64,000 nt of DNA from Nocardioides acrostichi (lineage in GTDB: Bacteria; Actinomycetota; Actinomycetes; Propionibacteriales; Nocardioidaceae). The notes beneath the pieces are model-generated. The model saw only the letters and a list, made by a program, of their open reading frames with translations, had not been told where the DNA came from and made no database searches. Positions 3,233 through 64,000 of the stretch are shown here, piece after piece. A program made the position numbers and the translations under genes. How positions within the stretch are numbered: the first letter of the stretch is position 1; each line of letters starts with the position of its first letter. The stretch covers positions 1 through 64,000 of the forward strand of contig NZ_JADIVZ010000006.1 of NCBI RefSeq assembly GCF_015319165.1, read 5' to 3'.

Positions 3233-4351
3233 CTAGATGGAATCCATCAACGCGCCCATCTTCGCTAGCCAGACGTCCTCAGTGAACATTCGGTTGAAAT
3301 ACTTGAGACAAGCTGACCGATCGCTGCGCCTCATGTCGCCCAGGGCAGCACGGACGGACTCGGACCGATAAGGATCCAGCAGAACTCCTGCACCAGCCCC
3401 GACAAAGCCGTTTGCGCTCGTCACGGCTGGCCCGAATGCGACCGGCGTGCCCACGGCTAGAGCTTCTATCGCCACGGTTGGGATACCCTCCTGCCATAAG
3501 CTGGGAACCAGTAGTCCTTCAGCTCGTGCAAGTGCTTCCCTCAGGACCGCGCGAGGCACAGTGCCGCACCAAGTGACATTGGGCAACTTCTTGGTCACAG
3601 ACTTATACTCGGCTTCGCGAGAACCAGCCCCGTAGATGGACAGCAACTCATCGCTTGGCCAGTTCTCTAAAAGTTGCCGCAGGCCCTTCTCGTGCGTTAA
3701 GCGACCTGCAAAGACCCACCCCCTCCGCCGCTTCGTTGTCGTGATTGAGATACGACGGGTGAAGTTTGGGATGAGGTGGACGGCTCCAGTGGTTCGCGGC
3801 TCGAAGAACGTCCTCGCTGACTCGTTCAGGACCACCACGTGCTTTGAGAGTCGCAGGATGGATTGAAGAGATCCCGTCCGGTGTGTCGCGATCGCCAGTG
3901 GCACAGATGCTGCGCGGCTACGGTAGCAACCGTGTTTCACGGCATTAATGGTACGCGTGTTGACACACAGGGTACATGGCTGACCGTCTCGAAAGAGCGT
4001 CCCCGCGGCGCAGACGGTGCGATAGTTGTGCAAAGTCGAGATGGTTTGTGCCCCGTACGTCTGCAGCCAATTTGTACCAAGGTTCGGGAAAGTATTGTGC
4101 AAAAGCACTACGTCAGGATCGATTTCGCGAAGTTCGTCATGAATGGAAGAGTCTCGTCCCGTGGCGACCCTCCAAGCAGAGGTAGCCATATATAAGGGCC
4201 GTTCAGACATCTCGTCTGTGCGCCGCCAGACGCGATGAACCTCATTACCTTGGCGCTCAAGAAGTCTCGTCTGATCTAAGACCACCTCATTTTCCCCGCT
4301 CGGCGTGGAAGAGTCGTAGAAGCTGTGGACCACTGCGACGCGCCGAGCCAT
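3233..4351 (-). CDS. Glycosyltransferase family 4
   Basis: About 372 residues of a typical GT4 enzyme. The N-terminal strand is RRVAVVHSFY followed by SGENEVVLDQTRLL, and the donor-binding region is VFAGRLTHEKGL then EGIPTVAIEALAVGTPVAF. A cluster of cysteines (VCAAGTLFRDGQPCTLC) is also seen in related GTs that act on lipid-linked intermediates. The ATG at 4349-4351 overlaps the upstream TAA (TAATG), which argues for translational coupling and against the longer frame reaching 4426. It probably adds one residue of the repeat unit after the TagA-like enzyme. Donor and acceptor cannot be read from sequence. Confidence 0.75.
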   Translation of the reverse strand: MARRVAVVHSFYDSSTPSGENEVVLDQTRLLERQGNEVHRVWRRTDEMSERPLYMATSAWRVATGRDSSIHDELREIDPDVVLLHNTFPNLGTNWLQTYGAQTISTLHNYRTVCAAGTLFRDGQPCTLCVNTRTINAVKHGCYRSRAASVPLAIATHRTGSLQSILRLSKHVVVLNESARTFFEPRTTGAVHLIPNFTRRISITTTKRRRGWVFAGRLTHEKGLRQLLENWPSDELLSIYGAGSREAEYKSVTKKLPNVTWCGTVPRAVLREALARAEGLLVPSLWQEGIPTVAIEALAVGTPVAFGPAVTSANGFVGAGAGVLLDPYRSESVRAALGDMRRSDRSACLKYFNRMFTEDVWLAKMGALMDSI

Positions 4352-5085
4352 TACCGTTTCCACTTCCGAATATCTCGGACCATCAACATTAAGAATGTTG
4401 AGTTCCCAATCAGATACCGACGCCACAATCGTCGGGGCTCAGAAATCAGTCGGAAGAGCCATTCCAAGTGGAGTGCAATCAGCAGGTTCGGGGCGGGTCG
4501 CTTGGTCCCTGCCGAAAAGTCGAAGGCTGCGCCGACCGCAACCGTGGTGACACCCAGACGCTCATGAATGCGTCCTGCTTCTCGATCTTGCTTTGGTGTG
4601 CCGAGAGCAACCCATACTATATCGGGCGCAGTCCGCTCGATCAGCAGATCCTGGGCGCTCCGACTCTCGGACGTCATTTCGCCGAATGGCGGCGCATGGG
4701 TGCCCACTATCTTCGCGTCCGGATATTTTTCAGAAAGTTTTTGAGCCAGCTGCTCTAAGGTTTCGTCAGTCGTGCCGAGTAAAAAGTGTCGAACACTCTC
4801 AAGTTGACCCCGGTCCATACACGCCTCAAAAAGCCAAGGTCCGCGGACTTGCTGCGTCTCCTTGTAGCCCTTACGTCGGAGATACCACGCCAGCGGGGAG
4901 CCGTCCGGGAGGTTGATCCCGCGCGCCTGCAAGATAGTCCAATAGGCGGGGTCGCTTGAAGCGCTATAGAAGGTTCCGGAATTGATCAGTCGAAATGTGT
5001 TCGGGGCATCTTTATCTATCACTAATCTAACGGCGGAGTCTGGATCCCCCACAAAGACGGGTACGTCGCAGAAGTAGCCAGGCAT
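4351..5085 (-). CDS. WecG/TagA/CpsF-family glycosyltransferase
   Basis: At 244 residues the length is typical of the WecG/TagA/CpsF family (GT26). It has the family landmarks in order: LINSGTFYSASSDP, LPDGSPLAWYLR (near residue 60), WVALGTPKQDREAGR and VGAAFDFSAGTKRPAPNLL near the C-terminus. Members transfer ManNAc or related sugars onto undecaprenyl-linked GlcNAc early in teichoic acid, enterobacterial common antigen or exopolysaccharide synthesis. Here it is first in the leftward operon and overlaps the next glycosyltransferase by one base. The gene is AT-richer than the genome average, as is the whole 872-5085 block. Confidence 0.85.
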   Translation of the reverse strand: MPGYFCDVPVFVGDPDSAVRLVIDKDAPNTFRLINSGTFYSASSDPAYWTILQARGINLPDGSPLAWYLRRKGYKETQQVRGPWLFEACMDRGQLESVRHFLLGTTDETLEQLAQKLSEKYPDAKIVGTHAPPFGEMTSESRSAQDLLIERTAPDIVWVALGTPKQDREAGRIHERLGVTTVAVGAAFDFSAGTKRPAPNLLIALHLEWLFRLISEPRRLWRRYLIGNSTFLMLMVRDIRKWKR

Positions 5086-5181: not shown

Positions 5182-6225
5182 TCAAACATCGCTGTCACGG
5201 TGAATTTGTGCTGACGACGTGGTGTTTCCCCCAACCTTCGGAGGGGACGCGTAGTTCCAAGTGTCAAGCTCCCGAAGGGTCGGGCGTCCCATAAACGGCA
5301 GCCCTTGCTGGCGACGCAACATGCCCCAGATCAACGGGACGAGTACGATCATCGCGAGCCCAACTAGTGCCACCACCACTGGGTGCGTTGAGTCTTTGCC
5401 CAACGGTGCCCATCCCGCCTTGTCGAGCAAGGCCACCCCAGACATGGTCAGCACCACGACGATGCCGCGACGGATGATGGATTGCGGCACCTTCGGAGCG
5501 ATCCGCGCCCCTAGCAGCGTTCCCGGCACGGAGCCGACGGTAAGCGGGATCGCGATCGACCAGTCCAGCCCGTGAATCGCGATGTTCGAGATGGCCGCGG
5601 CCAGCACGAGCGGCACGGCCTGCACCAGGTCGGTGCCGACCAGCTTCACGGCCGAGAGGCCGGGGTAGAGCATGAGCAGGGCGATCATGATGACCGAGCC
5701 GGACCCGACGCTGGTCACACCGACGAGCAGACCGCCGAGCATGCCCACCAGGAGAGTCGGGATCGGGCGGATCTTCGGATTGGGGTCACCCGGGTCTCCT
5801 CCGGACCGTACGCGGCGCAGGTTCAGGTAGAGCCGGGCCGCATAGGTGGCCGCCGCGAAGAGCAGGGCGAAGCCGATGCTCAGCTTGAGCACGTTGTCGA
5901 GTTCTTCGGGGTCGGAGGTGAAGTGATTGACCAGCCAGGGCCCGAGGAAGGCCATGGGCACGGAGCCCGCGATCAGCCAGCCGGCCAGCTTGAAGTTCGG
6001 CGAGCCCTCCTTCGCATGCATCGCCGCCCCGCCGGTCTTATAGACCGCGGCGGCGGTGAGGTCGGCGGTGACGATCGTCGCCGCCTCGCCGCTGCCCACG
6101 CCCAGGAAGATGAGTGCGGGGGTCATCAGCGCTCCCCCACCCATGCCGGTCAGGCCGACGACGATGCCGACGAGAAAGCCGGCGACCAGGATCGAGAGGG
6201 CGGTGAGGGTGATGAGGTCGGCCAT
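5182..6225 (-). CDS. Sulfite exporter TauE/SafE-family permease
   Basis: A 347-residue membrane protein of the TauE/SafE (DUF81) family, with several helices and the two related halves usual for this family: VGIVVGLTGMGGGALMTPALI at the N-terminus and LVGMLGGLLVGVTSVGSGS in the middle. Family members move small anions such as sulfite, sulfoacetate or sulfate-related compounds. The start abuts the stop of the APS-kinase fusion gene (6226), so the two are almost certainly co-transcribed and a role in sulfur uptake or export is likely. Codon use returns to the GC-rich norm here, marking the end of the AT-rich block. Confidence 0.85.
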   Translation of the reverse strand: MADLITLTALSILVAGFLVGIVVGLTGMGGGALMTPALIFLGVGSGEAATIVTADLTAAAVYKTGGAAMHAKEGSPNFKLAGWLIAGSVPMAFLGPWLVNHFTSDPEELDNVLKLSIGFALLFAAATYAARLYLNLRRVRSGGDPGDPNPKIRPIPTLLVGMLGGLLVGVTSVGSGSVIMIALLMLYPGLSAVKLVGTDLVQAVPLVLAAAISNIAIHGLDWSIAIPLTVGSVPGTLLGARIAPKVPQSIIRRGIVVVLTMSGVALLDKAGWAPLGKDSTHPVVVALVGLAMIVLVPLIWGMLRRQQGLPFMGRPTLRELDTWNYASPPKVGGNTTSSAQIHRDSDV

Positions 6226-8247
6226 CTAGGCCTCCTTGCCAAAGAGATGGTGCGAGGAGAGAGCACTCACGACCTGCTGGACGAGAGTGTCGATCTGAGT
6301 GGCGGCTGCTTCGGCGGCCTCGTCGCCGCGGCGGTAGGGGTCGGCGACGTCGAGCGCCGGGTCGGCGACACCGCGAGTCTGGCCGAGATCGTGGAGGAGG
6401 TCTGCCCCGCGGAGGTCGTGCTCGGCGGAGGCGGCGGCGAACTGCCCGAGAGTGAAGACCTTGCGGAAGACCTCGGGGTATTCGCTGAGGATGAAGCTGC
6501 GGTGATCGTTCTCCGCCACCAGCACGACGTCGGCCCAGGCCAGGTGGTCCCGGGTCAGCGGCTTGCTCTTGAAGGCTTCGACGCCGCTGATGCCGCGAGG
6601 GGTGAGCGTGGCAGCCATGACGCCGTCCATCTCGTGGGCGCGGAAGCCGTGGGTGCCGGCGCTGTCGAAGGCGAGCGTCGGGTCGCCTGCCGCGTGGTGC
6701 TCAGCGGCCAGCTGCATGAAGGGGCTGCGGCAGATGTTGGCGGTGCAGACGAAGAGGACGTTGAGGGGTTTCGACACGCCTTCGCCTTCGGCATCCGGCG
6801 GCTCAACCACCGGTGCGGCGCCCTGCGTGGGTTCTGGGGTGGGGTTTGCTGTGAGATCGGCGGGTTTCGACACGGTCGTCGCTGGCGCTCCTCCAGGCTC
6901 AACCACCGAAGACGGGGTCGCTGGCGCTCCTCCCGGCTCAACCACCGAAGACGGGGTCGCTGGCGCTCCTCCCGGCTCAACCACCGAAGACGGGGTCGCT
7001 GGCGCTCCTCCCGGCTCAACCACCGGTGGGTTTGGCTCGACCACCGATAGGTCGAGGTAGCCGGAGGTCTTCAGGGCCTGGACGACATCGTCGAGGGCGT
7101 CGTCGATGGTGCGGCCGGTGGTGTCGACGACCACGCCGGCATCGGTGGGGATCTCGTAGGGCGAGGAGATGCCCGTGAACTCCGGGATCTCGCCGCGGCG
7201 AGCCTTGGCGTAGAGGCCCTTGCGATCGCGGCGCTCGCACTCCTCCAGCGGGGTGGCGACGTGCACCAGGAAGAACGCTCCCCCGGCCTCGTCGACCATG
7301 GCGCGCACCTGGTCGCGGGTCTCGGCGAAGGGTGCGATCGGGCTGCACACGGCCAGGCCGCCATGGCGCGAGATCTCGGCGGCCACCCAGCCGATGCGGC
7401 GGATGTTGGTCTCCCGGTCCTCCTTCGAGAAGGTCAGGCCCGCGGAGAGGTTGCGGCGCACGACGTCGCCGTCGAGGGAGGTGATGGTGCGGGTGCCCTG
7501 CTCGAGGATCCGGTCCATGAGAGCTCGAGCCAGGGTGGACTTGCCCGAGCCGGAGAGACCCGTGAAGAAGAGCACCAGGCCACGCTCGTCGGCCGGCGGC
7601 TGGTCGAAGTCGATGACGGCGGCGATGTCGTCGGGGAACTCGTCGTCCTCGGTCTCCGCTAGCGCGTAGACGGGATCGGCGCCCGCGTAGGTGGCCAGCA
7701 CCTGCACACCCAGCGCGTGGTCGGCGTCGGCATCGCCGTGCGTCGCGAGCGGGACGGCGACGACCACGGCGTCCGGGAGCCTCGCCGCCGCGAGCCGCGT
7801 GGCCCGCAGCAGAGCGACCGGGCTCAACGACGGCGTGCCCGCGCCGACGAGGGCGACCAGGGCGAGCGAGCCCCGGCTCGACAGTTCCTCGAGCTGCGAC
7901 GAGGTGATCGGGCCCGCGACCGGCACGAACGTGCGACCCGGGTACGCCTCGCGCACCTGGGCGGGAGTGAGGTAGTGGTCGCGGAACGGGCCGTACTGCG
8001 CATGGGTGAGAGCCTCGATCCCACCCCCGGGCACGGCGACCCGCGCCAAGGGGAGGCCCTCGGGGTCCACGATCTCGACGGCACCCGCCTCCACGGCGGC
8101 GAGCCGGACGTCGTCGGGCAGCGTGAGCGTGATCGGTGAGCCCGGCTCGTCGAAGCGCGTCAGCGGCGCGAGCGCCCCGCTCGTGAGCAGCTCGAGGTCG
8201 TCGAGCTCACGCGGGCTCGGGCAGTGCTGTGGAACGGCCGGGGACAT
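6226..8247 (-). CDS. ATP-sulfurylase-like / APS kinase (CysC) / low-MW tyrosine phosphatase fusion
   Basis: About 673 residues in three parts. Residues 10-200 resemble ATP sulfurylase (LTSGALAPLTRF, VAVPLATHGDADADHALG), but I see no HxxH nucleotide-binding motif, so this part may be non-catalytic. Residues 225-395 are a complete APS kinase with Walker A GLSGSGKST, LDGDVVRRNL and FTGISSPYE; it makes PAPS. Residues 405-495 are a Pro/Ala/Val linker with VVEPGGAPATPSS repeated in tandem. Residues 495-673 are a low-molecular-weight tyrosine phosphatase with the P-loop VCTANICRS and a late ADPYRRGDE acid loop. I chose the ATG at 8245-8247 because GGAG lies 5 bases upstream; a GTG at 8253 is in frame. 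The linker is made of the dispersed repeat also found in nearby intergenic DNA. The gene is coupled to the TauE-like permease. Confidence 0.85.
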   Translation of the reverse strand: MSPAVPQHCPSPRELDDLELLTSGALAPLTRFDEPGSPITLTLPDDVRLAAVEAGAVEIVDPEGLPLARVAVPGGGIEALTHAQYGPFRDHYLTPAQVREAYPGRTFVPVAGPITSSQLEELSSRGSLALVALVGAGTPSLSPVALLRATRLAAARLPDAVVVAVPLATHGDADADHALGVQVLATYAGADPVYALAETEDDEFPDDIAAVIDFDQPPADERGLVLFFTGLSGSGKSTLARALMDRILEQGTRTITSLDGDVVRRNLSAGLTFSKEDRETNIRRIGWVAAEISRHGGLAVCSPIAPFAETRDQVRAMVDEAGGAFFLVHVATPLEECERRDRKGLYAKARRGEIPEFTGISSPYEIPTDAGVVVDTTGRTIDDALDDVVQALKTSGYLDLSVVEPNPPVVEPGGAPATPSSVVEPGGAPATPSSVVEPGGAPATPSSVVEPGGAPATTVSKPADLTANPTPEPTQGAAPVVEPPDAEGEGVSKPLNVLFVCTANICRSPFMQLAAEHHAAGDPTLAFDSAGTHGFRAHEMDGVMAATLTPRGISGVEAFKSKPLTRDHLAWADVVLVAENDHRSFILSEYPEVFRKVFTLGQFAAASAEHDLRGADLLHDLGQTRGVADPALDVADPYRRGDEAAEAAATQIDTLVQQVVSALSSHHLFGKEA
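6768..7042 (-). repeat. Intragenic cluster of the dispersed 44-bp repeat and 39-bp derivatives
   Basis: Two full 44-bp units beginning GTTTCGACACG and ending GGCTCAACCACC lie at 6768-6811 and 6864-6907. Three near-identical 39-bp tandem copies follow at 6908-7024 and a degenerate end at about 7032-7042. Read on the minus strand they encode VVEP...VSKP and the 13-residue VVEPGGAPATPSS unit inside the fusion-protein linker. Identical ends and unit length occur at 9649-9841 and 15135-15414 outside genes. Confidence 0.85.
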
Positions 8248-8253
8248 GCTCAC

Positions 8254-9927: not shown

Positions 9928-11337
9928 TCAGGCGTCGGAGGACTTGCTCTTCTTGCGGCGAGGCTCGGGAGCATCGGGGGCGTAGCCATATCCGTATCCA
10001 TAGCCGTAGCCACCACGGCGTGCGTTGGCCGGTGTCATGTTGAGCACTGCTCCGCTGATGTGGGCCCCCACTCCCTCCAGCCGGTCGGCTGCCTCTTCGA
10101 GCTGGTCGCGAGTCGTGCCGCCGAACTTCGCGACCACGATCGCGCCGTCGACCTGGCTGGCGATCAAGGCAGCGTCGACCACGGGGAGCAGCGGCGGCGC
10201 GTCGAAGATGACGACGTCGTAGGTCGCGCGCACCTCGGTCAGCAAGGTCGCCATGGCGTGGGACTGGATGAGCTCCGCCGGATTCGGCGGGATGGCCCCG
10301 CTGGGGAGCACGTCGAGCCCGCTCTCCTCGTGGCGTTGCACGGCGTCCTTCCAACCCACGCGACCCAGCAGCGCCGTCGTGACGCCGATGGCGTTGTCGA
10401 TGCCCAACTGCGCCGACGCCTTGGGCCGACGCAGGTCGCCCTCTATCAGCAGCGTGCGCGCCCCGGCACTGGCCAGGGTCAGTGCCAGGTTGATGGACGT
10501 CGACGTCTTGCCCTCGCTAGGCAGAGCGGAGGTGACGACGTAGACCTTGTTCTGCGCGTCAACGTCGACGAACTGCAGGTTGGTGCGCAGCACCCGGAAA
10601 GCCTCGACCCGGGGAGCATGCGACGGCAGGGCCGTCACCAGGCCACTCTTCTTGGCGCTGCTGTCGAAGGGAACGCGACCGAGCAGCGTGGACGACAGCG
10701 CCTCGAGATCCTCCGGCGTCTTCACCGTGGTGTCGAGCACCTCGCGGAGCACGGCCAGCCCGACGCCCAGCAGCAGGCCGAGCACGACGGCGAGACCCAG
10801 GTTGCGGACGGGCTGGGGAGACGAGGGGGCCGTCGGGAGAGCTGCATCGTCGACGACCGTGGCCTTGATCGGTGCCGTCGTCTTGCCCGGCGGGGTCTCC
10901 AACTGACGAATGAGGTCGCTGAGTGATTCCGCGTAGGCCTGTGCGATGGCCTGCGCCTGGGCCGGTGACGGATCGGTGGCGGTGATCTCCAGCACGACCG
11001 TCTCCGGGACGACCGTGGCGCTCACCTCGCCGATGATCTGACCAGAAGTCTCGTCGAGCCCGAGATCAGAGATGACCGTATTGGCGAGTTGGTCCTTCGT
11101 GACCAGATCGGCGTAGGACTGCACGCGCTGCTGGGAGAAGAGCCCACCCTGGTAGGCGCTGCTCGCCGTGGAGTCGTCGCCACCGGTGCTGGTGGTGACG
11201 AAGAGACTCGCGCTCGAGGTGTACTGCGGCGTCGAGAGGAACGTGAAAGCCGCCCCGGCGCCGACCACGACCAACACGGTGACCGCGATGAGCAGCCAGC
11301 GCCGCCGGATGATCCGCAAGTAGTCCTTCAGCTCCAC
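9928..11337 (-). CDS. Polysaccharide co-polymerase / bacterial tyrosine kinase (Wzc/CapAB-like)
   Basis: A 469-residue Wzz-kinase fusion. It has a cytoplasmic start, TM1 at about 13-33, an extracellular Wzz domain, TM2 at about 180-198, then the BY-kinase: Walker A SALPSEGKTSTS (about 269-280), Walker A' LLIEGDLRRP and Walker B VVIFDAPP. The C-terminus is a tyrosine cluster GGYGYGYGYGYAPD near residues 441-455, the autophosphorylation tail that controls chain length. The GTG start has GGAGG upstream. It is 39 bases downstream of the DUF4012 gene and probably co-transcribed with it. A second kinase of the same type lies at 27238; the nearest tyrosine phosphatase domain is in the CysC fusion. 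Confidence 0.88.
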   Translation of the reverse strand: MELKDYLRIIRRRWLLIAVTVLVVVGAGAAFTFLSTPQYTSSASLFVTTSTGGDDSTASSAYQGGLFSQQRVQSYADLVTKDQLANTVISDLGLDETSGQIIGEVSATVVPETVVLEITATDPSPAQAQAIAQAYAESLSDLIRQLETPPGKTTAPIKATVVDDAALPTAPSSPQPVRNLGLAVVLGLLLGVGLAVLREVLDTTVKTPEDLEALSSTLLGRVPFDSSAKKSGLVTALPSHAPRVEAFRVLRTNLQFVDVDAQNKVYVVTSALPSEGKTSTSINLALTLASAGARTLLIEGDLRRPKASAQLGIDNAIGVTTALLGRVGWKDAVQRHEESGLDVLPSGAIPPNPAELIQSHAMATLLTEVRATYDVVIFDAPPLLPVVDAALIASQVDGAIVVAKFGGTTRDQLEEAADRLEGVGAHISGAVLNMTPANARRGGYGYGYGYGYAPDAPEPRRKKSKSSDA

Positions 11338-15134: not shown

Positions 15135-15414
15135 GTTGCGGGGTTTCGACGCGGCCTCGCCCAGCGGCTCATCCGGCTCAACCACCGGTAGTTGCGGGGT
15201 TTCGACGCGGCCTCGCCCAGCGGCTCGTCCGGCTCAACCACCGGTAGTTGCGGGGTTTCGACGCGGCCTCGCCCAGCGGCTCGTCCGGCTCAACCACCGG
15301 CGGTTGCGGGGTTTCGACGCGGCCTCGCCCAGCGGCTCGTCCGGCTCAACCACCGGCGGTTGCGGGGTTTCGACGCGGCCTCGCCCAGCGGCTCGTCCGG
15401 CTCAACCACCGGCA
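15135..15414 (-). repeat. Five tandem 56-bp repeats upstream of the sulfurtransferase
   Basis: Units start at 15135, 15191, 15247, 15303 and 15359, each exactly 56 bp. Each is the 44-bp dispersed element (GTTTCGACGCGG...GGCTCAACCACC) plus a 12-bp spacer (about GGTAGTTGCGGG). Only a few bases differ between copies. There are no variable spacers, so this is not a CRISPR array. It fills the region between the leader peptide ORF and the sulfurtransferase start, 44 bases from the ATG. Confidence 0.92.
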
Positions 15415-27237: not shown

Positions 27238-28596
27238 TTACCGCCGGGACTTGCCCGACTGCTTGTAGCTGTACTGGTAGTAGGCGTTGGAGTCCATGGT
27301 CACCCGGTTCAGCACGACGCCGGCGATCCGGGCGTCGACCGCGCGCAGGCCGAGCAGCGCCCGGCGCAGCTCCGGCGCCTTGGTGCGGTTGGCACGTGCG
27401 ACCACGATGACCGCGTCGGCAGCCGTCGCGACCACGGCCGCGTCGGTCACCGCGACCAGCGGAGGCGTGTCGACGATGACCGAGTCGTACTCCTCCAGCA
27501 GCGACTCGACGAGGCCGCGGAACATCTGCGACTCCAACAGCTCGCTGGGGTTCGGCGGGATCGGCCCGCTCGCCACCACGTCGAAGCCGTGCGCGTGCTG
27601 CATGACGTCGGCCAACGTCGCCTTGCCGGTGACGATCGAGGTGACACCCACGTCGGGCACCAGGCCGAGTAGCTTGGCCACGCTCGGACGACGCAGGTCG
27701 GCGTCGACGAGGATCGTGTGGCGTCCGCTCTGGGCCAGCGAGGCAGCCAGGTTGGCCGCGGTGACGGTCTTGCCATCACCCTGCAGCGCGCTGGTGACGA
27801 GCAGCGAGCGCGGCGGATCATCGGGTGAGAGGTAGCTGATGTTGGTGCGCAGCTTGCGGTAGGACTCCGACCACACCGGGCTGGCGGCCCCCTGCTGGAT
27901 CACCGGCGTCTCGTTGATGTCCGGGTTGACCGGCACCGACGCCAGCGTCGTCAGGCCGGTGGCGGACTCGACGTCGGCGTCGTCCTTGATCGTCGTGTCG
28001 AGGGAGTCGCGCAGCAGGGCCAGGCCGAGGCCGAGCGCCAGGCCGAGCAGGAGACCGGCGGAGAGATTCAAGACGGGCACGGGCGAGCGCGGCGAGGTGG
28101 GCGGCACGGCCTCGCGCGTCAGCGAGACCCGCACCGGGGAGGCGTCGCTGGACTTGATGCGGTCGAGATCCTCCACGACCGTGATGAGGTTCTTCGAGAC
28201 GTCGTTGGCGATCTTGGCGGCCAGCCCCGGGTTCTCGTCGTCGGCGTAGACCTCGATCAGCACCGTGTTCGGGGGCACCTGGGCCGAGACCCGGCCGGCC
28301 AGCTCCTCGGGCGACTCGTCCAGCTCGAGGTCGTCGATGACCGGCTGGAGCACGAGCGGACTGCTCACGAGGTCGGGGTAGGACTTCACGCGGTTGGCGG
28401 CGAACAGGTTGCCCTGGCTCAGCGAGAGGGCGGTGTCGTCGGACGAGGTGTTCGCGAAGGCCACGAAGAGCTGCGCGGTGGCGCGGTACGTGGGGGTCAT
28501 CTGGGTCGTCAGCAGCCCGGCTGCGGCGACGCCGAGGACCACCATGGCGACCAGGATGCGCCAGCGTCGGCGCAGGATCGTGAGGAACTCGACCAT
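27238..28596 (-). CDS. Second Wzc-like polysaccharide tyrosine kinase
   Basis: 452 residues with a Wzz domain between two membrane helices (TM1 about 13-32, TM2 about 178-196), then a BY-kinase with Walker A TSALQGDGKTVTAANLA (about 268-284), Walker A' ILVDADLRRP and Walker B VIVDTPPL. The C-terminal tail NAYYQYSYKQ carries a four-tyrosine cluster for autophosphorylation. It should control chain length of the glycan made by the surrounding genes. It shares domain order with the kinase at 9928 but differs in sequence and tail. Transcribed convergently with the acyltransferase. Confidence 0.88.
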   Translation of the reverse strand: MVEFLTILRRRWRILVAMVVLGVAAAGLLTTQMTPTYRATAQLFVAFANTSSDDTALSLSQGNLFAANRVKSYPDLVSSPLVLQPVIDDLELDESPEELAGRVSAQVPPNTVLIEVYADDENPGLAAKIANDVSKNLITVVEDLDRIKSSDASPVRVSLTREAVPPTSPRSPVPVLNLSAGLLLGLALGLGLALLRDSLDTTIKDDADVESATGLTTLASVPVNPDINETPVIQQGAASPVWSESYRKLRTNISYLSPDDPPRSLLVTSALQGDGKTVTAANLAASLAQSGRHTILVDADLRRPSVAKLLGLVPDVGVTSIVTGKATLADVMQHAHGFDVVASGPIPPNPSELLESQMFRGLVESLLEEYDSVIVDTPPLVAVTDAAVVATAADAVIVVARANRTKAPELRRALLGLRAVDARIAGVVLNRVTMDSNAYYQYSYKQSGKSRR

Positions 28597-28899
28597 GGGA
28601 GGCGGAAGCTCTTTTCAGGGGCGGGAGCGGACCGGCGCGAAGGCGATCCGGCGGGGGCCAGGCCACCCTAGGCGAGAAGGGCTCGACCGCAGGCCCGAAT
28701 GCACGGACAGCTCCCCTGCGTCCAGCGTTCGCGCAAGGTCCGACGCGATCTGTCGCTCCGGTCTGGACCGCACGCCGTTCACCCGTAACCCACCAGTAGT
28801 TCCACCGTTCGACACCGTGAATCTCCCGACCCGCACCCCAGCGTGTCGTCCCCCCGGCGCGGGCCCCACACTCCCGCGTCCCCCACCGTGAGGGACACG
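28597..28899. promoter_or_regulatory. Divergent intergenic region between the kinase and the sigma-like gene
   Basis: About 300 bases between two divergent genes. No ORF here looks coding. It should carry promoters for both; the AGGGA site at 28891-28895 serves the rightward gene. I saw no known operator or riboswitch. Confidence 0.4.
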
Positions 28900-47340: not shown

Positions 47341-47376
47341 GGGGCGAATTCACCGGACGTCCGGTGAATTCGCCCC
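47341..47376. promoter_or_regulatory. Perfect 36-bp palindrome
   Basis: The left half GGGGCGAATTCACCGGAC (47341-47358) is followed immediately by its exact reverse complement (47359-47376) with no spacer. It lies 12 bases after the DsrE stop and about 140 bases before the coiled-coil gene. It could be an operator for a dimeric regulator or a transcript-ending hairpin. There is no U-tract after it. No match to a known operator is recalled. Confidence 0.7.
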
Positions 47377-47517
47377 TGGGACGATGGAACTCCACCGTCC
47401 CGGGGGCAGAAACGCCGTCCCACCCCGCCTCCGACCCCCGCGACCGATGCGGGACGACGCGGAGCCGCACGGTGGTGTCGGCCTACGCCGACGCTCGGTC
47501 TCGATAGCATCGCGCCG

Positions 47518-50500
47518 ATGACTCAACCCGGGCCGCCCGAGACCCCGCCCACCGGTGATCCCGGGCGGCGCTGGCCCTGGCGTGCTCGCGGCACCTCGCC
47601 CGCCGAGCAGCCGCCCACCCTCGAGGAGCTCGAGGCGCGGCTGGCCGAGCAGGCGGCGGCTGCCGATCGCCTGCTCGGGCTGCGCACCGCGGCCGAGCGG
47701 GCGGCGTCCGAGCAGGCCGCGGAACGGCTCGTCGCCGAGGAGTCGGCGGTCGCCTCTGCGCGAGCGCGGCAGAGCGCCGACGAGACCGCCGCCGAGCAGT
47801 CACGCCAGGCTGCCGAGGCGTACAACGCGCGGGAGGCCGCCGAGCGAGCCGCGGCCGACGCCGTCCGCCTGCGTGAGGAGGCCGAGCAGGCCGCGCAGGA
47901 GGCAGCGCGACTGCGCGAGGAGGCGGAGTCCGCCCTCGCGCGCGCCCACGAGCAGGCCGAGCAGCTCGCCGCGGCCCGCGCCGAGACCGAGGAGCGACTG
48001 GCGCAGTCGCACCGCGCCCGGGAGGCCGCGGAAGCCACGACCGCTGCGCAGGTCGAGAGCGCTCTGACGGCGCAGCAGGCTCGCGAGGGTGCGGAGCGCG
48101 CCGCCGCCGAGCAGGCCGAACAGGCGCAGCAGGCGCACGCCGCCCGGCTGTCGGCCGAGGAGGCGGTGCGCGCCCACGCCGAGGCGGCCACGGCCGCCCA
48201 CTCCGACCGCGAGAACGCCGAGCACGTCGCCCGCGAGGCGGCGGAGGCGGCAGGGGCGGCGCACCGGGCCCACGAGGCCGCCGAGCGCACCGCCTCGGAG
48301 CATGCGGGCGCGCGGGCCGTGGCCGACACCGCGGCGCAGGAGTCCGCCGCGGCCCGCAGTGTCGCCGAGGAGAAGGCCACCGAGCAGGCCCGGCTCGCTG
48401 CCGAGGCCCACGCGGCCCGCGAGGTCGCCGAGCAGGCGGCGCGGGAGCGTGCCGACGAGACGGAGCAGGCGCGGGCGCAGGCCGTGCAGGCCGAGGAGCG
48501 AGCCCGCTTGGTGGGCGAGTTCGCCGAGCAGGCCGCCGAGGATCGCCGGCTGGCCGAGGTGGCCGGCGTGGCGGCGTCCGAGCGCGCCGCCGCGGCCGAC
48601 GACGCGCGCGCCGCCGCCGAGGCGGCGGCCTCCGAGGCCCACGCCGCGCGGGAGCGGGCCGAGCAGGCCGCTCGCGAGCACGCGGACCAGCGCGCGGTCG
48701 CCGACGCCGCGGCCGCCGAGGCGGCTGGCGTGGCCACCGCCGCAGTCGACGAACGGCTGGCTGCCGAGCAGGCGGCCCGCGAGGCCCACGAGCTCGCCGA
48801 GGCCGCGCAGGTGTCGCGTCAGCAGGCCGAGGACGCCGCCCGCGATCGCGCCGCCGAGGCCGGTCAGGCCGCGGCCGCCGAGCACGCCGCACACACGGCG
48901 TCCGCCGCCGCAGCCGACGACGCCTCCGCCGCGCACGCCGCCCGCGAAGCGGCCGAACTGGCCGCCGCCGAGCAGGCCCGGCTGGCCTCCGACGCCCACG
49001 ACGCACGCGCCCTGGCCGACCAAGCTGCGGCGACAGCGGCCGCCTCCGCCGAGGACGCCCACGCGGCCGCCCAGCGCGAGGCCGAGGCCGCCGCCGCCGC
49101 CCACCGGGCCCGAGCCGAGGCCGAGACGGCCGCCGACCACGCGGCCGACTCCGCGCGCGACGCCCACCAGCAGCGCACCCTCGCCGAGGACGCCGGCCGC
49201 GAGCACGCCGCCCAGGCCGCCCAGGCCGCGGCCGCCGAGCACGCCGCGCACACGGCGTCCGCAGCGGCTGCCGACGCCGCCCGTGCCGCGCAGGTCGCCC
49301 GTGAGGCCGCCGAGCAGGCCGCCGCCCAGCAGGCGGGGCTGGCGGCGCAGGCCCACGACCTGCGTGCGGCTGCCGACGAAGCGGCCGCGGAGCAGGCACG
49401 GTCGGCCGCGGAGGCGCACACCGCACGGACCACCGCCGAGCAGGCCGCCACCCACGCCGCCGACGCGCGCGCGGAGGCCGAGGAGTCGGCGACCAGCGCC
49501 GCGGAGCGCGCCTGGGAGGCGCAGGCGCTGCGCGAGCGGGCGGAGGAGGCGGCCCGGGCTCGAGCCGCCGAGGCCGAGGAGGCCGCCGCCAGCGCCGCCG
49601 AGGCGCACGGGCTGGCCGAGCAGCGCGCGACGGCCGCCGTCGAGGCCCACGAGCAGCGGACCGCCGCGGAGGAGGGCGCCGCCGAGCAGTCGCGGCTCGC
49701 CACCCAGGCACACGCCGCGCGGGTCGAGGCCGAGGAGTCGGCCACCGCAGCGCACGCCGCCCGCGAGGCCGCCGAGCACGACGCGCAGGCGCACGCCGAG
49801 GTTGCCGGAGGCGCCGAGAGGCTGCGCGCGGAGGCCGAGCAGCGCACCGCCGAGGTCGAGACCCGGCTGGCCCAGGCGCTCGCCGCCCGCGAGGCCGCCG
49901 AGCAGGCCGCGGCCGAGGCCTTCGCGGCCCGCGCCGAGGCCGAGCGCTCCGCCGCCGATCGGGCCGTCGACCGGCAGAAGGTGGAGGCGTCGATCCGGCA
50001 CCAGGCCGAGCTGGTCGAGGCCGAGATGCGGCAGCGGCTGGACGCCGAGAAGCGCGCCCGCCAGCTCGCCGTCCAACTGGAGCAGGCGCGAGCCGAGCTC
50101 GCCGCCGTGCCCCCGCCGTCACGGTTCTCCGGGCCCATGGCCACCGCCGCCCTCATCCTCGGTCTCGCGCTGCTCGCCGTCGGCGGCTCCATCGCCGCCT
50201 TCGCGTTCGGCGTGCTGTGGGTCGGCATCGTCTGTGCCGTGCTGGCCGTGGTGCTGCTGGTGGTGGCCGACCGACTGCGGCCCTCCGGGGCCCAGGTCAC
50301 GATCGAGGACGACGGCGTCGTCGACATCCGCCACGGCGGCAGCCACCACCGCTTCGACCTCTACGACTCCTCGGTCGCCGTCGAGATGCGTAGCCAGCCC
50401 GGCGCCCGCGGCTGGCAGGTGGTGTTCCCCCGCGACACCCTCTCCCCCGTCGTCATCGACGCCCGGATGGTCGACCCCGAGGTGTTCACCCGCGAGCTAC

Positions 50501-50523
50501 GGCGGTGGCGGCCGGAGCTATGA
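47518..50523 (+). CDS. Large Ala/Glu-rich coiled-coil protein with C-terminal membrane hairpin
   Basis: 1001 residues. After a Pro-rich start (MTQPGPPETPPTGDPG), residues 35-860 are almost continuous coiled coil made of Ala, Glu, Gln and Arg (blocks such as AAREAAELAAAEQARLASD, with AAAAEHAAHTASAAAAD present twice). Two adjacent membrane segments follow (ALILGLALLAVGGSIAAFAF and IVCAVLAVVLLVVADRL, about 875-915), then a soluble C-terminal domain of about 85 residues (VTIEDDGVVDIRHGGSHHRF ... FTRELRRWRPEL) resembling a small PH-like beta domain. Length and layout suggest a membrane-tethered scaffold or tether. No close family is recognised. The ATG at 47518 is the start of the Pro-rich segment. 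Confidence 0.75.
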   Translation: MTQPGPPETPPTGDPGRRWPWRARGTSPAEQPPTLEELEARLAEQAAAADRLLGLRTAAERAASEQAAERLVAEESAVASARARQSADETAAEQSRQAAEAYNAREAAERAAADAVRLREEAEQAAQEAARLREEAESALARAHEQAEQLAAARAETEERLAQSHRAREAAEATTAAQVESALTAQQAREGAERAAAEQAEQAQQAHAARLSAEEAVRAHAEAATAAHSDRENAEHVAREAAEAAGAAHRAHEAAERTASEHAGARAVADTAAQESAAARSVAEEKATEQARLAAEAHAAREVAEQAARERADETEQARAQAVQAEERARLVGEFAEQAAEDRRLAEVAGVAASERAAAADDARAAAEAAASEAHAARERAEQAAREHADQRAVADAAAAEAAGVATAAVDERLAAEQAAREAHELAEAAQVSRQQAEDAARDRAAEAGQAAAAEHAAHTASAAAADDASAAHAAREAAELAAAEQARLASDAHDARALADQAAATAAASAEDAHAAAQREAEAAAAAHRARAEAETAADHAADSARDAHQQRTLAEDAGREHAAQAAQAAAAEHAAHTASAAAADAARAAQVAREAAEQAAAQQAGLAAQAHDLRAAADEAAAEQARSAAEAHTARTTAEQAATHAADARAEAEESATSAAERAWEAQALRERAEEAARARAAEAEEAAASAAEAHGLAEQRATAAVEAHEQRTAAEEGAAEQSRLATQAHAARVEAEESATAAHAAREAAEHDAQAHAEVAGGAERLRAEAEQRTAEVETRLAQALAAREAAEQAAAEAFAARAEAERSAADRAVDRQKVEASIRHQAELVEAEMRQRLDAEKRARQLAVQLEQARAELAAVPPPSRFSGPMATAALILGLALLAVGGSIAAFAFGVLWVGIVCAVLAVVLLVVADRLRPSGAQVTIEDDGVVDIRHGGSHHRFDLYDSSVAVEMRSQPGARGWQVVFPRDTLSPVVIDARMVDPEVFTRELRRWRPEL

Positions 50524-61139: not shown

Positions 61140-61156
61140 GCCCGTAGTCTCGCACC

Positions 61157-62251
61157 GTGTCTCGCAGGCTCGCCCAGACCCTCGTCGCCGCCGGCGTCCT
61201 GGTGCTCGTCGTGGTCCTCGGCGTGGCGACCGTCGCGGTGGTGCGGCACCTGCGCGCTCCCGACACCGACTTCGGCCGAGCGGTGCAGATGGCGCCCCCG
61301 GAGGCGCAGCGTTACACCTTCACCGACTGGGCCGGCGTGCGCGACGCGCTCGACCTGCGGGACTCCTCCGACTCGCTCGGTGCGCTGCTGCGACGCGGCT
61401 TCAGTCAGGATCTGACCTCCGCCTCCGGTCTGCTCGACTCCGCGAAGCTGCTGGACTCCACCTTCGGCTGGTCGCCGGCCACGGCGCAGTGGGAGCTGCT
61501 GGCCCAGGCCGAGGAAGGATCGGTCGAGATCGTGCGCCTCGACCCCGGCACCGACTTCGACGACCTCGCCGACCGGCTTCGCGCGCTCGGCTACACCGCG
61601 CCGTCCGATGCCGAGGGCGGGGAGACCTCCGGCGGAGTGTGGGTCGGCGGCGACGACGTGCTCGGCCAGGTCACGACCCGCGCCGACGAGACCGGCAACC
61701 CGATGCTCCAGAACTTCGCTCTCGACGCCGACGCCGGACTCGTCTTCACCAGCAACACCTCCTCCTACCTCCAGCACGCCGTGCGCACGGCGTCGTCGCA
61801 GGACGGTCCGAGCGACCAGGGGCTGCGCGACGCCGTCTCGGCGCTGGGCACCGAGCCGCTCTCGGCGATCGGCTACACCGGCGACCAGGTGTGCAGCGAG
61901 CTCGCGATGGGGCAGGCCGACGCCGACGCGCAACAGACCGGCGCGCGGCTCGTCACCGAAGCGGGCGGAGTGTCTCCGCTGGCCGGGTTCGTGATCGCCG
62001 ACCTCGGCGGCCGCGCGCTGCGTGTGGAGATGTCGTTCGAGTCCGACCAGCAGGCCCGCGACGACGTCGACCCGCGCGCGAAGCTCGCCGCCGGCCCCGC
62101 CCCCGGGCAGGGCGGCAGCTTCGCCGAGCGGTTCAGCGTCGACGAGGCCAGCGCCACCGGCACGGTGATCACCCTCGACCTCACGGCCAAGCCCCAGGCC
62201 TACGCCCTCTCCGACCTCTCGTCCGGGCCGGTGCTGTTCGCAACCTGCTGA
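61157..62251 (+). CDS. Membrane-anchored extracellular protein (DUF3352-like)
   Basis: 364 residues with one N-terminal membrane helix (TLVAAGVLVLVVVLGVATVA, about 8-28) and an extracellular domain that starts APPEAQRYTFTDWAGVRDAL. Mid-protein YTAPSDAEGGETSGGVWVGG and VFTSNTSSYLQHAVRTASS suggest the DUF3352-like repeated alpha/beta fold, but the match is weak. A Cys pair (QVCSEL and the final ATC) might form a disulfide. Function unknown. The GTG is divergent from the Nudix-SixA gene across 17 bases, so the two starts share a promoter region. The stop is 34 bases before the 22-bp repeat array. Confidence 0.65.
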   Translation: MSRRLAQTLVAAGVLVLVVVLGVATVAVVRHLRAPDTDFGRAVQMAPPEAQRYTFTDWAGVRDALDLRDSSDSLGALLRRGFSQDLTSASGLLDSAKLLDSTFGWSPATAQWELLAQAEEGSVEIVRLDPGTDFDDLADRLRALGYTAPSDAEGGETSGGVWVGGDDVLGQVTTRADETGNPMLQNFALDADAGLVFTSNTSSYLQHAVRTASSQDGPSDQGLRDAVSALGTEPLSAIGYTGDQVCSELAMGQADADAQQTGARLVTEAGGVSPLAGFVIADLGGRALRVEMSFESDQQARDDVDPRAKLAAGPAPGQGGSFAERFSVDEASATGTVITLDLTAKPQAYALSDLSSGPVLFATC

Positions 62252-62284: not shown

Positions 62285-62383
62285 GTGACGGGTCACGTGG
62301 AAATTCGCGACGGGTCACGTGGAAATTCGTGACGGGTCACGTGGAAATTCGTGACGGGTCACGTGGAAATTCGTGACGGGTCA
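62285..62383. repeat. Tandem 22-bp repeats with a palindromic core
   Basis: GACGGGTCACGTGGAAATTC-type units start at 62287, 62309, 62331, 62353 and 62375, exactly 22 bp apart; the last is cut short. Most units contain GTGACGGGTCAC, an inverted repeat with a 2-base spacer. The array fills the gap between convergent genes and ends on the stop codon of the P-type ATPase (62381-62383). Confidence 0.92.
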
Positions 62384-64000
62384 GCGGAAACGACGCAGGC
62401 GCAGGCTGTTGCCGACGACGCAGACCGACGAGGCGGCCATGGCGGCGCCGGCGAGCATGGGGTTGAGCAGGCCGGCGGCGGCCAGCGGGATCGCCGCCAC
62501 GTTGTACCCGAACGCCCACACCAGGTTCGCGCGGATCGTGCCGAGCGTGCGCCGGGCCAGCCGGACGGCGTCACTCACCGCCAGCAGGTCGCCGGAGACG
62601 AGCGTGAGGTCGCTGGCCTCGATGGCGACGTCGGTGCCGGTGCCGACGGCGATGCCGAGGTCGGCCTGCGCGAGAGCCGCGGCGTCGTTGACGCCGTCGC
62701 CCACCATCGCGACACCACGGGCGCCGTGCGGACCCTCGGCCTGGAGCGCCTTCACCTGGTCGACCTTGTCGACGGGCAGCACCTCGGCCACCACGCGCTC
62801 GATGCCCACCTCGGCGGCGACCTGCCGGGCCGCGACCTCGGAATCGCCGGTGAGCAGCACGGGCTCCAGCCCGAGCGCCCGCAGCCGCGCGATCGCCTCG
62901 GCCGAGGTCGGCTTGACGGTGTCGGCCACCGCGAGCACTCCACGCGCGGCGCCCTCCCACCCGACGAGGACGGCGGTGGCGCCTCGCCCGGCCGCCGCAC
63001 GGACCGCCTCACGCAGGTTCTCCGACACCGCGAGTCCCTCGGAGTCGAGGAGCTGCGGGCGACCGATCACGGCCGGCGTGCCGTCGACCGAGCCGACCAC
63101 GCCCAGCCCCTCCCGGTTAGCGAAGTCGCCCAGTGATCCGAGCTCGGAGGCCGGGAGCGCTGCCGCGATGGCCCGCGCCACCGGGTGCTCCGAGCCGGAC
63201 TCGAGCGTGGCGGCCACCCGTCGCACCTGCGACTCCTCCGCGCCCTCGCCCGCTACCACGTCGACCAGACTCATCTGCCCGGTCGTGACGGTGCCGGTCT
63301 TGTCGAGCACCACCACCTCGATGCGCCGCGCCTGCTCGAGCACCTCCGGGCCGCGCACCAGGATGCCCAGCTGCGCGCCCCTCCCGGTGCCGACCATGAG
63401 CGCGGTCGGCGTGGCCAGTCCGAGGGCGCACGGGCAGGCGATGATGAGCACGGCGACCGCCGCCGCGAGCGCGTGGGTGATGCCCCCCGGCGTGCCGGCG
63501 CCGGCGACGAGCCATCCGACGGCGGTGAGCGCGGCGAGGCCGATCACGATCGGCACGAACACCGAGGAGACCCGGTCGGCGAGGCGCTGCGCCTCGGCCT
63601 TGCCCTGTTGGGCCTCCTCGACCAGCCGCGCCATCTGCGCGACCTGGGAGTCGGCCCCCACGCGAGTGGCGCGCACGAGCAGCAGTCCACCCACGTTGAC
63701 GCACCCGCCGACCACCTCGCTCTCGGGCCCCACCTCGACCGGCACCGACTCGCCGGTGACCATCGCGGTGTCGACCGCCGAGGTGCCCTCGACCACCACC
63801 CCGTCGGCTCCGATGCGCTCGCCGGGCCGGACGACGAGCAGGTCGCCCGCGGCGACCTCGGCCGCGGGCACACTCATCTCGGCGCCGTCGCGGCGCACCG
63901 TCACGTGCTTGGCGCCGGCCTCCAGCAGTTCGCGCAGCGCGGATCCGGCGCGCCGACGGGCGCGCTTCTCGGCGTACCGGCCGGCCAGCATGAACGTGGT
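62381..64000 (-). CDS. Copper-type heavy-metal P-ATPase (5' end outside window)
   Basis: At least 540 residues of a P1B-type ATPase. It has the phosphatase motif TGES, the metal-binding CPC in [20 protein letters not shown], the phosphorylation site [18 protein letters not shown], the HP motif in [13 protein letters not shown] and the hinge [20 protein letters not shown]. The CPC followed by the family's YN ([15 protein letters not shown]) and M-x2-S ([15 protein letters not shown]) residues in the last helices point to copper(I) export. The N-terminal metal-binding domain, if any, lies beyond position 64000. The stop is immediately preceded by the 22-bp repeat array. Confidence 0.93.

Follow-up and report, generated by a model that had tools for sequence, protein, structure and literature searches.

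Short dispersed palindromic repeats that lie in frame within genes have been described in Rickettsia and other bacteria (PMC3733652). In the Rickettsia RPE and the intragenic GTAG/CGTC REPs, the in-gene copies occur singly or in groups, as they do in the locus described here, and encode up to 82 aa; we recognized no sequence tag shared by those elements and ours, and our actinobacterial hosts lie outside the coverage of that paper. The RAYT-type REPs likewise have many dispersed, mostly intergenic copies in common with the Nocardioides repeat, although no RAYT transposase turned up in the genomes searched (see below). On the protein side, the APS kinases of Thiobacillus denitrificans and Entamoeba carry a dead ATP-sulfurylase (ATPS)-like domain (PMC13213808): the T. 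denitrificans protein (3CR8), the Entamoeba histolytica APS kinases and the Aquifex aeolicus SAT/APSK (2GKS) all display an N-terminal ATPS fold followed by an APS kinase, as here, and the T. denitrificans and Entamoeba proteins have lost the sulfurylase motifs. Two further points of reference are the Wzb/Wzc-type pairs, in which an intact low-molecular-weight protein tyrosine phosphatase (LMW-PTP) is found near a Wzz/AAA_31 BY-kinase in an exopolysaccharide (EPS) locus, and the REP13E12/DUF222-HNH repeats of Mycobacterium (mentioned in PMC10589994), which are multicopy HNH genes in an actinobacterium.

In the window, i.e., the entire 64,000-nucleotide stretch of Nocardioides acrostichi DNA that was analyzed (positions 1 to 64,000 of contig NZ_JADIVZ010000006.1), a minus-strand ORF at 6226..8253 codes for a fused protein of 675 aa from a GTG at 8253, or 673 aa from an ATG at 8247, with no stop codons inside the frame. 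We consider it likely that this is a genus-wide protein combining an inactive ATPS-like domain, an APS kinase (CysC), a disordered linker and a Wzb-type PTP, whose pre-existing joint has been repeatedly invaded by repeats. The preliminary description of this DNA knew of no standard CysC–PTP fusion, and the open-access literature that we searched likewise yielded no report of the fusion or of the 46-bp repeat discussed below. Nor did that literature yield the repeated invasion of the linker or the HNH association, while in-frame palindromic repeats were already known.

The CysC domain (7123..7584, minus strand; residues 224-377) has the P-loop GLSGSGKST and matches the Pfam model APS_kinase (PF01583) with an E-value of 2.2e-56 over model positions 1-152 of 152; it also scores 185 bits against TIGR00455, for which the cut-off is 138.7. 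Its P-loop and downstream motifs form invariant columns across the relatives. The PTP domain (6256..6765, minus strand) displays the CTANICRS P-loop and the DPYRRG acid loop and matches LMWPc (PF01451) above the cut-off (7.8e-16, residues 499-609). Both PTP motifs are nearly or fully invariant, with C7, R13, D142 and P143 conserved in all 29 aligned rows; by its motifs, the domain is an intact LMW-PTP and is predicted to be an active phosphatase. In a model of the full-length protein, the three domains are well folded, and the pLDDT of the linker falls below 50. Thus, the ORF, the Pfam matches and the motifs uphold the original call of a single continuous frame with an ATPS-like domain, a full CysC and a full LMW-PTP. 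A sequencing error or frameshift as the source of the fusion was rejected, given that the fused frame is kept across species. Immediately downstream lies a gene of the TauE/SafE sulfite/sulfonate exporter family (5182..6225, minus strand; PF01925, 9e-44), a conserved neighbor at 66 of 80 loci. The last codon of the fused ORF abuts the ATG of this gene, making a shared transcript probable.

No Pfam model matches the first 215 residues of the protein, where the N-terminal ATPS-like domain lies (7588..8223, minus strand). A profile built from 33 relatives matches ATP sulfurylases in the PDB (1r6x, 2.3e-4), and an AlphaFold2 model of the domain (pLDDT 94.7) retrieves in Foldseek searches the ATP sulfurylases of yeast (1j70; E 2.7e-10, query TM-score 0.71) and Aquifex (2gks; E 3.0e-10). 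The HxxH nucleotide-binding motif is visible in none of the 33 aligned relatives. Hence, in agreement with the fold and the motif loss originally proposed, we classify the domain as ATPS-like rather than as an ATP sulfurylase, and it is probably catalytically inactive. The genome has a gene for a true CysN at another locus (G000:C10:32713-33939, 570 bits), which renders the N-terminal domain dispensable for sulfurylase activity; that activity would come from CysN together with CysD. By analogy with the APS kinases of T. denitrificans and Entamoeba, the N-terminal domain might serve as a structural or assembly domain. At ~215 aa, the Nocardioides ATPS-like domain is shorter than its counterparts in those two proteins and 2GKS, and none of the three has a C-terminal LMW-PTP.

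The genomic context of the PTP is that of an EPS-type locus, which in the window also holds glycosyltransferases, a WecG/TagA/CpsF gene (4351-5085) and a BY-kinase-type chain-length regulator with Wzz, GNVR and AAA_31 domains (9928..11337, minus strand), the proposed substrate of the PTP. There is a second BY-kinase-type gene (Wzz and ParA/AAA_31) in the window at 27241-28614, and genomes of the genus usually have one or two BY-kinases each. Wherever a PTP attached to CysC and a BY-kinase were both detected, the two lie on the same contig within ~40 kb (1.7 to 37 kb; 16 of 16 genomes), as against one of five genomes with a lone CysC (Fisher p 8e-4), the ~40-kb limit having been set after the data were seen. 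Moreover, in four genomes with no PTP at this locus (G001, G003, G011 and G015) a separate LMW-PTP adjoins the BY-kinase, and the closest unfused PTP loci without a neighboring CysC, mostly from other genera, show a BY-kinase in the fetched flanks in eight of nine cases. From these neighborhoods, the PTP is probably a Wzb-like partner of an exopolysaccharide BY-kinase, differing from the known Wzb/Wzc pairs in being fused to an APS kinase. It would dephosphorylate the BY-kinase of the nearby locus, while CysC would make PAPS for a sulfated polysaccharide or for sulfate assimilation, its supply being physically tied to chain-length control. Among the 20 window genes scanned, we found no sulfotransferase that would use the PAPS. 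Should this proposal be right, PAPS synthesis and a polysaccharide-assembly phosphatase reside in one chain throughout the genus, suggesting coordinated sulfate activation and EPS assembly.

CysC and PTP are separated by a linker (6778..7014, minus strand) that is predicted to be disordered (residues 414-492; model residues 411-489). It contains a 39-bp tandem array (6878..7025, plus strand; 3.8 copies, 99% identical by TRF), the minus strand of which encodes VVEPGGAPATPSS. Three repeat copies had been counted here initially; the three identical units are indeed present (6916-6947, 6955-6986 and 6994-7025), and they are joined by a fourth, near-complete copy of the 46-bp dispersed repeat that is the last of the array (6863..6908, plus strand; VVEPGGAPATTVSKP) and by a different fifth, which represents a second subtype at the border between linker and PTP (6767..6812, plus strand; VVEPPDAEGEGVSKP). 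The peptide specified by this fifth copy recurs in the linkers of the HNH nucleases considered below. The linker had also been described as a 44-bp repeat trimmed to 39 bp. That it is a dispersed repeat lying in frame with a unit divisible by three holds up, but the element is ~46 bp long, and the 39-bp unit consists of the last 31 bp of the element plus 8 bp (AAGACGGG); hence, it is not a simple trimmed copy.

The dispersed element, GGTTTCGAC...CAACCACCG, has 224 perfect copies of its general pattern in the 4.33-Mb genome of N. acrostichi (123 forward and 101 reverse), with none for a reversed control pattern and a chance expectation of 0 in the window. The majority of the 71 repeat clusters inspected in this genome lie outside genes. 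Related patterns are found in 26 genomes of the genus, at 1 to 271 copies each, and essentially nowhere outside it. Two subtypes of the G013 type show clear hairpin potential (z of -3.8 and -2.6), and that of the N. acrostichi subtypes is weak (-0.3 to -1.0). A RAYT transposase as the mobilizer of the repeats was rejected, as Y1_Tnp (PF01797) is absent from the 39 genomes searched, the control being positive in five genomes. An intergenic array of the 46-bp family in the window (15142..15411, plus strand) comprises five units with a period of 56 bp, which is not a multiple of three. This array immediately precedes a rhodanese/mercaptopyruvate sulfurtransferase gene, whose annotated start is probably too early, since the longest ORF called there extends into the array.

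The fusion itself is widespread in the genus. The gene is present in 36 Nocardioides genomes, 23 of which have the fused form, six the PTP as a separate next gene and seven no PTP at that position. A larger set of 95 distinct sequences, which was fetched via the PTP and is biased toward loci having one, comprises 63 fused, 25 adjacent and seven CysC-alone forms. Named genomes retrieved in a search place the family in Nocardioides, with matches that include Pimelobacter simplex and some MAGs, and no plasmid record matched the cysC-ptp locus. A fusion unique to N. acrostichi was, accordingly, discarded in view of the 62 other distinct Nocardioides sequences. When the tree is rooted with four other genera, parsimony places the fused state at the base with 10 changes, although the weak support of the basal branches (52-74) leaves the fusion-first order uncertain. 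One lone CysC (L012) terminates in ...RTAPVVEQEGAR followed by a stop, and we infer that this end, which resembles a linker, may be the remnant of a lost PTP.

These sequences bear directly on whether the repeat made the joint or invaded it. A perfect GGTYGAG-N8-34-TCGARACC element occurs in 26 of the 63 fused linkers and one with at most a single mismatch in 31, as against expectations of 0.00 and 0.32, respectively, from dinucleotide shuffles; in about half of the linkers, some of which are very short, no element can be recognized by the pattern. The 35 perfect elements, from 26 species, fall into five classes of orientation and frame: 23 reverse VVE, five forward GFE, three reverse GR, two reverse W/RLSS and two forward VS. 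A single inherited insertion does not suffice to explain these classes, which point to several independent entries. Further, the linker element of one species (G008) is letter-for-letter identical to many of its dispersed repeats, and that of another (G013) is nearly identical to dispersed copies in the same genome. As judged from these comparisons, the linker is a recurrent landing site, rewritten by resident repeats; since about half of the linkers hold no recognizable element, their sequences also reflect drift and low-complexity growth of other kinds. The initial proposal that the repeat serves as an in-frame domain joiner is not sustained, as the same fusion recurs in 62 other Nocardioides sequences with about half of the linkers lacking a recognizable element, which is in part the outcome that the initial description itself named as speaking against its proposal, namely a common fusion with unrelated linkers. 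Because it occurs both with and without the repeat, the repeat is not required to create it.

A stronger version of that proposal would have the repeat create the fusion by inserting between adjacent cysC and ptp genes, removing the stop and providing an in-frame joiner, with the repeat-free linkers having lost it by drift. The many linkers with elements favor this scenario, as does the arrangement of the unfused ptp genes, which directly adjoin or overlap cysC, such that a short insertion could fuse the two. We regard it as unlikely, given that very short, element-free fused linkers exist (L049, L077 and L120), that the orientation and frame of the elements vary between species, and that, by parsimony, the genus started out with the fused form, which thus predates the species-specific subtypes. 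An equally improbable account holds that the linker peptide is selected for a function of its own, as a Pro/Ala/Glu-rich tether or binding motif, with the DNA repeats being just a convenient source. Consistent with this, 23 of the 35 elements share a single frame giving acidic, Pro/Ala-rich VVE... peptides, and the tandem units stay in frame; against it, the linkers range from ~10 to over 100 aa with no conserved composition, other frames are tolerated (GFE..., W/RLSSDER... and VSR...), and at least six species have no linker insert, the genes being separate. Least probable of all is that the frame is open without yielding a single chain, and that translation starting within the gene, past the linker, produces a free PTP such as about a quarter of the species encode in a separate adjacent gene. 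Against this, stop codons are absent from the linker in 63 species, multiples of three are strictly kept, and on inspection of the PTP border no start codon accompanied by a ribosome site stood out; processing or internal starts could still give two products.

Returning to the invasion of a pre-existing joint, we propose that the linker is under little constraint on length or sequence, and that a species-specific, REP-like dispersed repeat would enter it repeatedly, in either orientation and in several frames. Only those insertions whose net length is divisible by three and that can be read through without a stop would survive, and some inserted copies would afterward expand into tandem arrays in steps of one full in-frame unit (39 bp in this linker and 42 bp in treY, see below). 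The repeat would thereby lengthen and rewrite the existing joint without being needed for making it. This sets the Nocardioides system apart from the RPE and REPs, in that the linker of one protein appears to have been struck independently in many species by species-specific subtypes, with PF01797 absent from the genomes searched. The locus thus offers a natural replicate experiment, with one joint in dozens of species, each with its own repeat, from which the rules of frame, orientation and unit length for turning selfish DNA into coding sequence can be counted.

Comparable in-frame arrays are seen in other genes of the N. acrostichi genome. The treY gene, coding for maltooligosyl trehalose synthase, features seven in-frame copies with a 42-bp period (L041:4650-4966, i.e., G000:C4:74650-74966) that encode the peptide VVEPGGAPATSVSP; the TreY model TIGR02401 matches in two stretches flanking the insert (7e-214 overall). 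Likewise, ten near-identical HNH-nuclease ORFs of 524-650 aa (L045, L130, L139, L140, L155, L157, L159, L162, L168 and L169) have two conserved domains, separated by a linker with arrays of VVSTRSAVDGLTAQPP in forward and VVEPPDAEGEGVSKP in reverse orientation. The second domain is an HNH endonuclease (PHROGs, 2.7e-6). Within genes, all 38 spacings between neighboring copies in the same orientation are divisible by three, as opposed to 30 of 149 in intergenic regions (Fisher 2.5e-21); the 38 in-gene spacings are not independent, since ten of the 12 genes that contribute them are paralogues. The initial remark on the divisibility of the 39-bp unit is therefore borne out and can be extended: selection keeps the repeat units in frame.

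The multicopy HNH family obtains no name from Pfam or NCBIfam. It parallels the DUF222-HNH genes of Mycobacterium but differs from them in having no match to PF02720, in its in-frame linker arrays and in being flanked by dispersed repeats. At 13 of its 14 loci in the N. acrostichi genome, a repeat is found within 350 bp outside the gene, as compared to 1.7% of random placements. The sole paralogue without flanking repeats (L186:575-2008, i.e., G000:C23:210774-212207) is also missing the linker array. In a distant Nocardioides (G034; L173-L180), HNH homologues with 39-46% identity bear the repeat particular to that species, VSRLAGARTSTTG, as an in-frame part of the same linker, with additional repeat copies upstream. 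Counts of DUF222 (PF02720) and of the repeat per genome bear no simple relation by eye, two genomes (G018 and G036) having more than 30 PF02720 matches each and zero copies of the repeat pattern; we accordingly confine the association to the multicopy HNH family and do not extend it to DUF222 genes in general. We tentatively suggest, as a possibility that we rate below even chances, that the repeats and the multicopy HNH genes constitute one RAYT-free mobile system, in which the nuclease would cut at or spread the repeats, and selection would leave inside cysC-ptp and treY only read-through copies in multiples of three. Alternatively, the nuclease may merely home into the repeats. The link between repeat and HNH gene provides a testable candidate for REP-like spread in bacteria without a known REP transposase.

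Two other repeats were seen in the window. An Ala/Glu-rich ORF of 1051 aa at 47368-50523 has long, degenerate internal repeats with a period of ~357 bp and no Pfam match. Further along, a tandem array of the 22-bp unit GTGACGGGTCACGTGGAAATTC (62285-62390, 4.9 copies) separates an E1-E2 ATPase gene from a gene at 61148-62251 that belongs to no Pfam family.
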